Assembly: GCF_000516515.1 (NCBI RefSeq)
Contig: NZ_KI911784.1
Coordinates: forward strand, 4,006,633 to 4,070,632
Origin: Chloroflexus sp. Y-396-1
GTDB lineage: Bacteria > Chloroflexota > Chloroflexia > Chloroflexales > Chloroflexaceae
DNA: 64,000 nucleotides
Direction of reading: 5' to 3'
Shown: positions 60,947 through 64,000 of the stretch, piece by piece
How positions within the stretch are numbered: position 1 is the first letter of the stretch
How the letters are laid out: every line of letters starts with the position of its first letter
Notes under the pieces: generated by a model
What the model saw: only the letters and a program-made list of their open reading frames with translations
Told to the model about the DNA's origin: nothing
The model's database searches: none
Program-made: the position numbers and the translations under genes

Positions 60947-61246
60947 CTATTCCTCCGGGAGACACTGTGTACACACCCGAAACGGAATACCGTTCTCGCT
61001 CACAACCCGTACATTGTCGCGTGCCCCACAGTATCGACACACCGATAAATTCTCGATCTCATCAGCTCGCCATAACTGTGGTGTTTGACTCAGCTCCATC
61101 GGTGTTTCGGTAGACAGAACACCGATCCGAACACAGACTGCGGCGGGAAAAATGTCAGCGACCCGAGCAGCCAGATGGTAATGGTATGAGTAGACCTCAT
61201 CGCCGATCATGACGCCGCGTAAACGGGGATGCGATTGAATCTTCAT
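60947..61246 (-). CDS. Small protein with C-terminal zinc ribbon, unknown function
   Basis: A 99-residue protein. The C-terminal third carries CRYCGARDNVRVV and FRVCTQCLPEE, two CxxC pairs that should hold one zinc. The N-terminal part (GVMIGDEVYSYHYHLAARVA) has no known match. The ATG overlaps the stop of the upstream 83-residue gene as ATGA, so the two are translated together. Confidence 0.75.
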   Translation of the reverse strand: MKIQSHPRLRGVMIGDEVYSYHYHLAARVADIFPAAVCVRIGVLSTETPMELSQTPQLWRADEIENLSVCRYCGARDNVRVVSENGIPFRVCTQCLPEE

Positions 61247-61494
61247 AGTTGTGCCAATCGATCCATCAAGCGTTGGAGCTCTTCGGCTGTTAATGCAAAC
61301 GCTTCATCATCCGCAAACATCAGTTCGTCGAGAACCTCGCGAATGACCTCCTCTTCATCGGCTGGGACGATTAGTTCTTCCTGTTCGAGGCTGTAGAAAC
61401 GGTCGAATGCCCAATCAGCCAGTTGCGCAATTGACAACCGTCCGGCCAGATGTTCGGCAATAACTGCGATTAGATCATCACTGGTGAACTGCAT
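61243..61494 (-). CDS. Small acidic helical protein, unknown function
   Basis: An 83-residue protein starting at ATG 61492-61494 (MQFTSDDLIAVIAEHLAGRL); a TTG at 61509 would add five residues. It is rich in Glu, Asp and Leu, wholly helical by eye, with no membrane segment (LADWAFDRFYSLEQEELIVP, then LTAEELQRLMDRLAQL). The layout recalls small immunity-like or adaptor proteins, but nothing specific is seen. Paired with the zinc-ribbon gene by ATGA overlap. Confidence 0.72.
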   Translation of the reverse strand: MQFTSDDLIAVIAEHLAGRLSIAQLADWAFDRFYSLEQEELIVPADEEEVIREVLDELMFADDEAFALTAEELQRLMDRLAQL

Positions 61495-61587
61495 ACAATC
61501 TCTCGCCAACGATATGCACGATGGGTCTGCATCTAAACTTCATGGTAGCACAATATATCTGGCAAACATTGTCTATTTACCCTTGTA

Positions 61588-62100
61588 TTAACTCAATGCA
61601 TCTTCACACTGATCGCGAAAACCACATTTACGGCAGCGAGCAGCATCTTCGTGATTACGAGCAACATCAGTTGCCTGTAAAAGGTCACGCATTTCGCTCA
61701 GGGTCGTCAGCACCTCGGCACGCACGGCTGCTGTATAAGGTAATCGAAATGTCGTTTCAGCATAGCGAAGCAGACCATACGGAGGTGCCATACCGGTAGT
61801 TTCCTCCACCAAGACGAGGTAGGCAGCCAGTTGCATCAGGTCAGACTGGTACGGCTGCTGAGCATGTCGATTGGGTTTCACTTCAACCGGAATCAGGTGT
61901 GACCCGCGTTGCAAAACATAATCTGGTTTACCGGTCAAACCCAGACGTGAACTGAAGAGTGGGCGAGTCAGCGTGCGAGCTTCACTAACATCCTGGCTCA
62001 CCACGCGGGCCCATGGCAAACCGCTGCGTTGCCGTAACACGAAAGCCAACACAAATACCCCAATCGCACTCAGAATCAGCGCAATACCTAACGCTATCAT
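61588..62100 (-). CDS. Membrane-anchored Cas4/Dna2-like nuclease, C-terminal part
   Basis: A 170-residue protein. Residues 1-23 form one membrane helix (MIALGIALILSAIGVFVLAF). The soluble part carries the RecB-family nuclease core: LTGKPDYVLQ (Asp), LIPVEVKPNR (Glu-x-Lys) and QLAAYLVLVEE (Gln-x3-Tyr), then YGLLRYAETTF. The last segment CRKCGFRDQCEDAL supplies three cysteines like the C-terminal iron-sulfur ligands of Cas4. The fourth cysteine and the N-terminal histidine are in the next gene upstream, joined by a TGATG stop/start overlap. No cas1, cas2 or repeat array is near. Confidence 0.82.
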   Translation of the reverse strand: MIALGIALILSAIGVFVLAFVLRQRSGLPWARVVSQDVSEARTLTRPLFSSRLGLTGKPDYVLQRGSHLIPVEVKPNRHAQQPYQSDLMQLAAYLVLVEETTGMAPPYGLLRYAETTFRLPYTAAVRAEVLTTLSEMRDLLQATDVARNHEDAARCRKCGFRDQCEDALS

Positions 62101-62324
62101 CAGCTTGCCCAGATAAGCAGGCTAACGCCGCCGATCAGCAAGCCCAATCCGATCCAGAGGAGACGTTGGCTCGTTGCTACTAACCATCCATGCCGGATGT
62201 GAGCGATTGTGCCGAGTTCACGACGCTCGACACCGGTCGGCTTGAGGCCAACGACCCGGCGTAGCCACCACGACCGCGCACAATAGTAGTACTCACCCAA
62301 TTCACTGGCTCGAATGACATCCAT
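62100..62324 (-). CDS. Membrane-anchored Cas4-like N-terminal part
   Basis: A 74-residue protein starting MDVIRASELGEYYYCARSWW, the exact kind of opening seen in Cas4 (a lone cysteine after a YYY/YC block), followed by LGTIAHIRHGWLV, which supplies the motif-I histidine. Residues 54-72 are one membrane helix. Both halves carry a helix at the facing ends, so a single ancestral protein may have had a two-helix hairpin between the Cas4 halves, now broken by the TGATG overlap at 62098-62102. It overlaps rseP in the same way. Confidence 0.8.
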   Translation of the reverse strand: MDVIRASELGEYYYCARSWWLRRVVGLKPTGVERRELGTIAHIRHGWLVATSQRLLWIGLGLLIGGVSLLIWAS

Positions 62325-63490
62325 CAGCGACCAAAGATTGGTGTTCCCTGTACCGCGTTCAACACGTCATTGACCGTCAATAGCACCATCAAACCCATCA
62401 GGGCCATAAACCCGAAAGCGTGTACCAGTGCCTCTTTTTCAGGCGGCAGTTTCTTACCACGTACCCATTCAATCAGTGCAAAGAGAATGTGACTCCCATC
62501 AAGGGCCGGAATAGGTAACAGGTTCAAAATAAAGAGATTAAGACTCAGCACTGCCGTCAGCGACCAAAATGAAATAAAGCCATCAGGTTGTCGGATCACC
62601 TCACCAGTTGCCCGCGCAATCCCAACTGGGCCAAGTGGTTCGCCAGTTGGAGGTGGTGTAGGGCTGAACAGACCAGCCAAAGCAGCCGGTAGATCGGCCA
62701 GCATCATCACCATGCGTCCGGTCAGTTCGACGCTGTGCATAAAGCCGACGCCGATCGCAGCAAACGGGTTAACCCGCTGATTAACAACCGCAGCACCATA
62801 ACTGAAACCAAAACCGGCGCTGAACTCACGGCCATCAGGAGCTGTCCAGGGGCCTGGGGTTACCGTTAACGTTACTTCAACACCATCACGAATGACTACT
62901 GCTTCGATAGCACTTCCTACGCGGCGCTGAGCTATCTCACGAATGGTGTTTTCATTGCTAATGGGCTGACCATCAAGCCGGATCAGCTCATCACCAGCTT
63001 GAAACCCGGCAATTGCTGCCGGAGTGCCGGGATACACATTACTGATCTGCATGCGACCGGTTGGAGTAGGTACACCGACGGTCGCAAAGAGCACAGAAAA
63101 AATCGCTACTGCCAGAATAAAATTCATCAACGGCCCGGCCAGCATCACCGGAATTTTGCGCCAGGGTGGTGCGGCGGCCAAACTTCCGGTACCGTAAACT
63201 GCGTCTTTCTCGCCATCCATTCCGGCAAAGCGAACAAATCCACCCAGCGGGAGCCAGTTGAGCGTGTACTTAATCCCGTTTCGCTCGAAGAGAACCAGCG
63301 CCCGTGGGGGAAAGCCAATCCCGAACTCTTCGACCTTGATACCCATTCGTAATCCTACCCATAGATGGCCCAGCTCATGAACGAACACGAGCAAGCTGAG
63401 CATCAGTAGGAAGACGAGAACAGTCAATAACGGATCAAAAATGGTGATTGTAATCTGTTGCCAGACGTTATTTGCAGTTGTCATGAGCAT
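62324..63490 (-). CDS. rseP: Site-2 intramembrane zinc protease RseP (M50)
   Basis: A 388-residue membrane protease. The ATG at 63488-63490 follows GGAG; an upstream TTG at 63502 is possible. The zinc motif is VFVHELGHLWVGLRMGIKVE and the third ligand is in LLPIPALDGSHILFALIEWV (LDG). A PDZ domain (about residues 125-205, VYPGTPAAIAGFQAGDELIR) lies between the first and later helices. It cuts anti-sigma factors or signal remnants within the membrane. It heads a chain with the two Cas4-like genes by TGATG overlap, which is unusual: rseP normally neighbours dxr, cdsA or bamA. Confidence 0.94.
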   Translation of the reverse strand: MLMTTANNVWQQITITIFDPLLTVLVFLLMLSLLVFVHELGHLWVGLRMGIKVEEFGIGFPPRALVLFERNGIKYTLNWLPLGGFVRFAGMDGEKDAVYGTGSLAAAPPWRKIPVMLAGPLMNFILAVAIFSVLFATVGVPTPTGRMQISNVYPGTPAAIAGFQAGDELIRLDGQPISNENTIREIAQRRVGSAIEAVVIRDGVEVTLTVTPGPWTAPDGREFSAGFGFSYGAAVVNQRVNPFAAIGVGFMHSVELTGRMVMMLADLPAALAGLFSPTPPPTGEPLGPVGIARATGEVIRQPDGFISFWSLTAVLSLNLFILNLLPIPALDGSHILFALIEWVRGKKLPPEKEALVHAFGFMALMGLMVLLTVNDVLNAVQGTPIFGR

Positions 63491-63780
63491 AGCACGCTCC
63501 AAAGAGGACGAGTAGAGTAATGAAGGCGACGAGCAGGTAGCTCGTCGCCGCTCGTATTCAAGAGTAGTGTACCGGATTGAAGCGGCTGAGTCAAGGGAAA
63601 TTACCGTAGCCTGGGAATTTTCAAAGGTTTCACCCTCCTTAGCAGAGGTGAGGAGAAAGAGAGAAGAAACAGGTTCCTTACCTAATCCGCAATGTATGCC
63701 GAGTGATGCGGCTTCCCGTCCCGCCGTTGGTCTGTAGCACGCTCCCGTGATACTGTTGATCTGGTTCGTTACATCGCACG
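63491..63780. other. Upstream region of the rseP operon
   Basis: No gene. It should contain the rseP promoter; no strong match was found. It leads into the tandem repeat that starts at 63781. Confidence 0.4.
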
Positions 63781-64000
63781 ATGCGGGCCGGGGGCCCGCG
63801 CATCCATCGTCTCAGGACGAATACGTCCTGAGACCGACGTTAAAGAATGGACATTGCGCGATGCGGGCCGGAGGGCCGCGCATCCATCGTCTTAGGACGA
63901 ATACGTCCTGAGACCGACGTTAAAGAAGGGACATTGTAGGATGCGGGCCGGGGGCCCGCGCATCCACCGTCTCAGGACGACTACGTCCTGAGACCGACGT
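63781..64000. repeat. 80-bp tandem repeat with two hairpins per unit (runs off window)
   Basis: Units begin ATGCGGGCCGG at 63781, 63861 and 63941, so the period is exactly 80; the third is cut by the window end. Each unit has a GC hairpin (GCGGGCC against GGCCCGC) and a second perfect one, GTCTCAGGACG loop AATA CGTCCTGAGAC. Changes between copies are few, and in unit 2 the second stem has one change. There are no unique spacers, so it is not a CRISPR array. Confidence 0.92.

Follow-up and report, generated by a model that had tools for sequence, protein, structure and literature searches.

Chloroflexota carry the signature of a Cas4 nuclease divided between two small proteins, and this division is old and conserved. 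We consider it likely that the two genes encode two obligate subunits of one membrane-tethered, Cas4-type PD-(D/E)XK nuclease; as judged from sequence and modelled structure, two separate membrane proteins probably share one active site. The initial annotation of the locus had proposed a membrane-tethered nuclease assembled from two chains, and this predicted enzyme is now backed by conservation, by the retention of both halves where they are unlinked, by the concerted loss of residues and by the predicted fold.

A Cas4 signature divided between two genes

The window (the whole stretch of 64,000 nucleotides that was analysed) comes from a single-contig Chloroflexus genome of 4.89 Mb. The two genes, hereafter the N-half and the C-half, and their neighbours have the following features.

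62324..63484, minus strand: rseP, 386 aa, site-2-type intramembrane metalloprotease (M50 + PDZ, from domain matches)
62322..62326, minus strand: overlap of rseP stop and N-half start, TGATG
62100..62324, minus strand: N-half, 74 aa, Cas4 N-terminal segment and one C-terminal membrane helix
62280..62282, minus strand: Cys15 codon of the N-half, predicted first Fe-S ligand (codon check)
62199..62201, minus strand: His42 codon of N-half motif I, predicted metal ligand (codon check)
62162-62109, minus strand: membrane helix of the N-half, residues about 55-72
62098..62102, minus strand: overlap of N-half stop and C-half start, TGATG
61588..62100, minus strand: C-half, 170 aa, N-terminal membrane helix, then RecB-like nuclease core
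62094-62038, minus strand: membrane helix of the C-half, residues about 3-21
61876..61923, minus strand: Asp60 to Lys75 block of the C-half
61921-61923, minus strand: predicted catalytic Asp60 of the C-half (codon check)
61882-61884, minus strand: predicted catalytic Glu73 of the C-half (codon check)
61876-61878, minus strand: predicted catalytic Lys75 of the C-half (codon check)
61606..61635, minus strand: Cys156, Cys159 and Cys165 of the C-half, predicted remaining Fe-S ligands (codon check)
61243..61509, minus strand: small acidic protein, 88 aa, downstream of the C-half
60947..61246, minus strand: small protein with zinc-ribbon-like CxxC pairs, 99 aa, downstream

The PD-(D/E)XK motifs (His, Asp, Glu-x-Lys and Gln-x3-Tyr) are all present, divided over the two proteins, and the set of four cysteines is complete for the pair (Cys15 with Cys156/159/165) and incomplete in either protein alone. 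Because motifs and cysteines add up over both chains, the N-half and the C-half jointly make up one Cas4. This division of the Cas4 cysteines and RecB motifs between a 74-residue and a 170-residue protein had been described in the initial annotation, and each residue named there was verified in the DNA, the codons of the C-half confirming Asp60, Glu73-x-Lys75, Gln90-x3-Tyr94 and Cys156/159/165. One hydrophobic helix was found in each half, at the facing end as had been claimed, and the two junctions by which rseP, the N-half and the C-half were said to be joined both read TGATG, a junction peculiar to close relatives. In profile searches, the C-half matches Pfam Cas_Cas4 (E 2.2e-11) and NCBIfam cas4 (TIGR00372; 70.2 bits, cut-off 65), and the N-half alone gives a weak match to the first ~40 positions of the Pfam and NCBIfam Cas4 families. 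The window gave no Rfam match, and an RNA element at the junction was accordingly rejected.

The two small genes 3' of the C-half (60947-61509) are conserved in many Chloroflexales. A gene related to that of the 88-aa acidic protein, for which Pfam, NCBIfam and PADLOC searches gave no match, follows in 28 loci, and one related to that of the 99-aa zinc-ribbon-like protein in 22. At the other side of the locus, an 80-bp unit is repeated in tandem over positions 63771-64000, giving 2.9 copies up to the end of the window; palindromic GC-rich and AGGACGAATACGTCCT segments occur inside the array.

Conservation of the split across Chloroflexota

Within the window's family, the C-half gave some match in 40 of 41 genomes, 37 of them close (E 1e-48 or better), and the N-half was a separate ORF adjoining the C-half wherever the locus was read far enough. 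At family junctions the two ORFs may overlap slightly or be separated by gaps exceeding 150 bases, and the relative frame varies. The halves overlap or abut in relatives from the genus and often do not elsewhere; the TGATG junction itself is confined to close relatives, and overlaps, gaps or unlinked genes are found in others. At the level of the order, the N-half was present in 68 of 82 genomes. Loci from the rest of the phylum and from a named genome collection comprised 90 split, one fused and seven without an N-half; two of these seven are ordinary one-piece Cas4 genes, and some others stop near a contig end. Separate N and C ORFs were accordingly present, with varied junctions and frames, in 90 of the 91 extra Chloroflexota loci in which both halves were detected.

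A genome scan with a single sequence gave no match; a profile scan succeeded and matched 531 candidate loci, of which the best 80 were read. When profiles of each half were run over 400 genomes of the phylum, the N-half was found in 96 and the C-half in 126, the C profile being present in 94 of the 96 genomes having the N profile. The two genes are adjacent on the same strand in 75 of these 94 genomes, separated by at least one gene in seven, and on different contigs or far apart in 12. In two of these 12 (G130 and G035), one half lies at the end of a contig, so that an assembly break may account for the separation. G270 is one complete chromosome with the N-half at 3.05 Mb and the C-half at 0.24 Mb, 2.8 Mb apart, and in G335 the distance is 0.9 Mb; local reading of both genomes gave a lone N-half and a lone C-half, so that the pair persists there as two free-standing genes. 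For the one pair of Chloroflexus species with unsaturated synonymous sites (most other comparisons were saturated), dN/dS was 0.16 for the N-half and 0.06 for the C-half, the latter near saturation, which indicates purifying selection on both halves in that pair.

These observations bear directly on the possibility that a recent frameshift or stop broke a single cas4 gene in the Chloroflexus genome and that its pieces are now decaying. Such an accident would agree with the TGATG overlap and with the two pieces adding up to one Cas4. It is refuted, and can for practical purposes be dismissed, by the presence of the split in all eight members of the genus and phylum-wide with differing frames and gaps, by the unlinked copies and by purifying selection. 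Programmed frameshifting or stop read-through was likewise rejected as a general rule, since the frame varies between loci, the halves can be hundreds of bases apart and some are not linked at all. As evidence that would speak against a split, the initial annotation had named fused genes in close relatives or orthologues without the catalytic residues. Fusions are confined to a single distant family, in which they are nested among split forms, and frequent loss of the active site is likewise seen nowhere else, an outcome that favours the split. The single polypeptide typical of the Cas4 family is thus replaced phylum-wide by two genes, with three inactive-looking natural fusions as exceptions.

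Residues kept and lost in concert

Residue conservation was assessed in an alignment of 110 N-halves and 117 C-halves. Cys156, Cys159 and Cys165 are invariant in all 117 C-halves, in which Asp, Glu, Lys, Gln and Tyr are nearly invariant, and Cys15 is kept in every N-half row covering that position. Conservation of this degree, which includes near-invariance of the catalytic residues over both sets, lies far beyond chance. Over all relatives, positive residues flank both helices on the catalytic side, a positive-inside pattern as expected if both globular parts are located in the cytoplasm.

A distant family with a long N-half, from genomes of 3-14 Mb, allows the fate of the N-half His to be set against that of the C-half Asp/Glu: 16 loci keep both, 10 have lost both, and three are discordant (L087, L100 and L243; Fisher p about 3e-5 in a test that ignores relatedness). 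Residue loss was scored by eye from the motifs, with L100, L233 and L091 ambiguous, and the result is the same without them. Placed on the tree, these double losses belong to about five separate lineages. Such concerted loss is expected if one active site is built by both chains. Apparent His-to-Glu changes in this family were discounted as partly an alignment artefact, the His sitting after an insertion. Three natural fusions (L100, L217 and L218) join exactly these two halves, and the catalytic residues are lost in all three. More generally in this distant family, His, Asp or Glu is lost and the C-half cysteines are kept in L092, L100, L217-L220, L239, L244, L246 and L248, which look like pseudo-nuclease versions. 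Since catalytic residues have been lost in some relatives, selection does not keep nuclease activity everywhere.

One may ask whether the pair serves as an Fe-S protein in structure, redox sensing or DNA binding, its nuclease activity being absent or secondary. Cysteines that are invariant in 117 of 117 C-halves, even where Asp or Glu has been lost, would be in line with this. However, catalytic loss is limited to a few lineages. In Chloroflexales, to which the window belongs, and in Anaerolineae-type relatives, there is almost no variation at Asp, Glu, Lys, Gln, Tyr and His, a constancy that would be difficult to account for if the pair were not catalytic; we find such a role unlikely. It is highly improbable that the C-half is a nuclease by itself and the N-half a separate partner or regulator merely resembling the Cas4 N-terminus: the C-half alone does exceed the NCBIfam Cas4 cut-off, but it has neither the fourth cysteine nor the motif-I His, and co-occurrence, concerted loss and natural fusions bind the halves together.

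Predicted fold of the pair

In several loci both halves are in one frame with a single stop between them. The Roseiflexus pair was modelled from 79 aligned sequences as one read-through chain, with the stop taken as a residue; the model reached a pLDDT of 95.5 and a pTM of 0.90, values to be read in the knowledge that read-through imposes the pairing and that AlphaFold may recall the Cas4 fold. One 40-residue helix bears the motif-I His and continues into the first membrane-spanning stretch; the second such stretch leads to the nuclease core. The best matches in a PDB fold search were the Cas4 chains of Cas4-Cas1-Cas2 complexes (Z 18.8, 181 residues within model residues 1-249, spanning both halves), followed by AdnA, SSO0001, Exo5, ACE1 and Dna2. 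A model of a natural fusion has a similar order of elements (pLDDT 86.8). Modelling predicts with high confidence that such a pair, joined into one chain, forms a whole Cas4 fold with a membrane hairpin; as the join between the chains is artificial, the model supports, and does not prove, the pairing of free chains.

Genomic neighbourhood

The neighbours of the pair differ by clade and include rseP, a translin-like protein, NAD kinase with RecN, and a DinG/XPD-like helicase (on the B. subtilis plasmid described below). Throughout Chloroflexales, rseP precedes the pair (47 of the loci read there). None of the other Chloroflexota loci with enough upstream sequence, the Anaerolineae-type ones among them, has rseP upstream of the pair. 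The coupling to rseP that had been suggested from the window therefore holds within Chloroflexales and fails as a general feature, and for the further suggestion of control by intramembrane proteolysis we found nothing beyond gene order in this one order. In its explicit form, this suggestion would have RseP cut the helix of the N-half or the C-half and so release or inactivate the nuclease on envelope stress. A single N-in helix with a very short outer tail, which is what the N-half has, is a shape compatible with RseP substrates, and rseP overlaps or adjoins the pair throughout Chloroflexales. Yet the other Chloroflexota loci have no such link, and in Chloroflexales rseP often lies within a longer same-strand run with uppS-, pyrH-, frr- and cdsA-like genes (named by sequence inspection), so that its link with the pair may be an accident of operon order. 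We regard control by RseP as quite unlikely.

In several Anaerolineae-type loci (L157, L163, L168, L171, L174, L178 and others), the N-half is immediately preceded by a translin-like gene (PF01997). A functional link was rejected, leaving a weak lead only, as this gene is located elsewhere in other genomes and also occurs in genomes without the pair. Some loci have an L,D-transpeptidase gene between the N-half and the C-half.

The absence of CRISPR genes near the locus, noted from the window, was upheld: to reach another Cas4 gene or a CRISPR array, one has to go about 285 or 395 kb from the pair. In this respect the pair is a solo-Cas4, defined as a cas4 gene outside CRISPR loci. As the genome does have CRISPR arrays, the pair could in principle be an adaptation Cas4 acting in trans for arrays elsewhere. 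Against this, each array read has its own one-piece Cas4 alongside, the window's genome having two such genes, each beside an array; the recurrent neighbours of the split loci include no cas gene; and in the tree the split C-halves (40 rows) lie on one side of a branch and one-piece Cas4s (24) on the other, with moderate support (85/69). A trans-acting CRISPR role is, in our opinion, very unlikely. The arrays beside one-piece Cas4 at L186:7950-13001 and L187:6663-13001 are large, with 75 and 87 repeat copies, respectively, within the stretches read. Neither a phage origin nor membership of a defence system was retained: a C-half profile scan of viral contigs gave no relative and the B. subtilis C-half no phage match, and the PADLOC hits were limited to Cas4 models and weak matches to DruK.

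Pairs outside Chloroflexota

A plasmid search revealed the same two-gene, two-helix pair in Paludisphaera and Singulisphaera (Planctomycetota) and in B. subtilis, at the following positions.

L226:2145-2926: split pair on Paludisphaera plasmid PALBO2
L227:2166-2938: split pair on Singulisphaera plasmid pSINAC03
L228:2176-2914: split pair on B. subtilis plasmid NRS6116_2

On all three plasmids, the N-half bears the annotation 'hypothetical protein'. In B. subtilis, a single small gene separates the pair from a DinG/XPD-type helicase gene upstream of it, and toprim and SNase genes are nearby.

Relationship to known Cas4 proteins

The pair resembles the Cas4 family (PF01930/COG1468; 7mi4, 8d3l, 4ic1, 4r5q) in modelled fold (Z 18.8), catalytic motifs and the four cysteines over both chains. 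It differs in consisting of two genes and two chains, in having two membrane helices between motifs I and II, and in having no cas1/cas2 or CRISPR array nearby. Passages of earlier reports describe known Cas4 proteins as Fe-S nucleases (PMC3466216, PMC4176176). Those of Hudaiberdiev et al. (2017; PMC5704561) describe four cysteines in all members of the Cas4 family, and solo-Cas4 outside CRISPR loci that are monophyletic in many Chloroflexi and mainly vertically inherited. These solo-Cas4 of Chloroflexi are very likely the C-halves of the present study. As far as these passages go, the two agree in being Cas4 outside CRISPR loci and differ in that the C-half has three of the four cysteines, the fourth residing in a neighbouring or distant small gene. 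The word 'split' is absent from the main text of that article, and the passages concerned mention neither a split nor membrane helices (PMC5704561).

The Argonaute-associated Cas4 family protein ACE1 (9iac, 9iab) also has a Cas4 fold outside CRISPR (Z 12.0, 11.3), but was solved as one chain, and no Argonaute link was seen for the split pair. The Fe-S nuclease domains of AdnA, AddB and Dna2 share the RecB-type nuclease fold (Z 9-15); in contrast to the split pair, to which no helicase is fused, they are domains of large helicase-nucleases. A literature search, which covered few subscription papers and bioRxiv preprints, returned no description of the split or of the membrane helices. We read the split, two-chain membrane form as a new architecture of a known family.

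A proposed two-subunit membrane nuclease and its possible role

In the two-subunit nuclease that we favour, the N-half would supply the motif-I His and one Fe-S cysteine, and the C-half Asp, Glu, Lys, Gln and Tyr with three cysteines. Sequence and model suggest that the helices of the two halves pair as a hairpin in the membrane, that both globular parts lie on the cytoplasmic side, and that the two chains together may build one Fe-S cluster and one active site. The putative nuclease would work independently of CRISPR at the inner membrane face, where it would trim DNA ends or single strands. From this location and from the family, we tentatively guess at a role in the handling of incoming or membrane-attached DNA; the next candidate would be recombination or repair of chromosomal ends. 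It is more speculative, and we hold it as rather doubtful, that the pair represents an unrecognised class of membrane nucleases across phyla and plasmids, in which the Cas4 site and the Fe-S cluster would exist only upon helix pairing, so that assembly would serve as a switch restricting or controlling cleavage where DNA enters.

A catalytic domain that is divided in the middle of its active site and Fe-S site, and kept so across a phylum, is unusual, and its assembly is a possible control point. Because the C-half alone scores above the TIGR00372 cut-off, it will probably be labelled a CRISPR-associated Cas4 by automatic annotation; genomes are thus likely credited with a CRISPR protein that is actually half of something else, while the N-half passes as a hypothetical protein. 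The little-understood, CRISPR-free Cas4 proteins of Chloroflexota become accessible to biochemical testing, and B. subtilis plasmids offer a tractable version of the pair.
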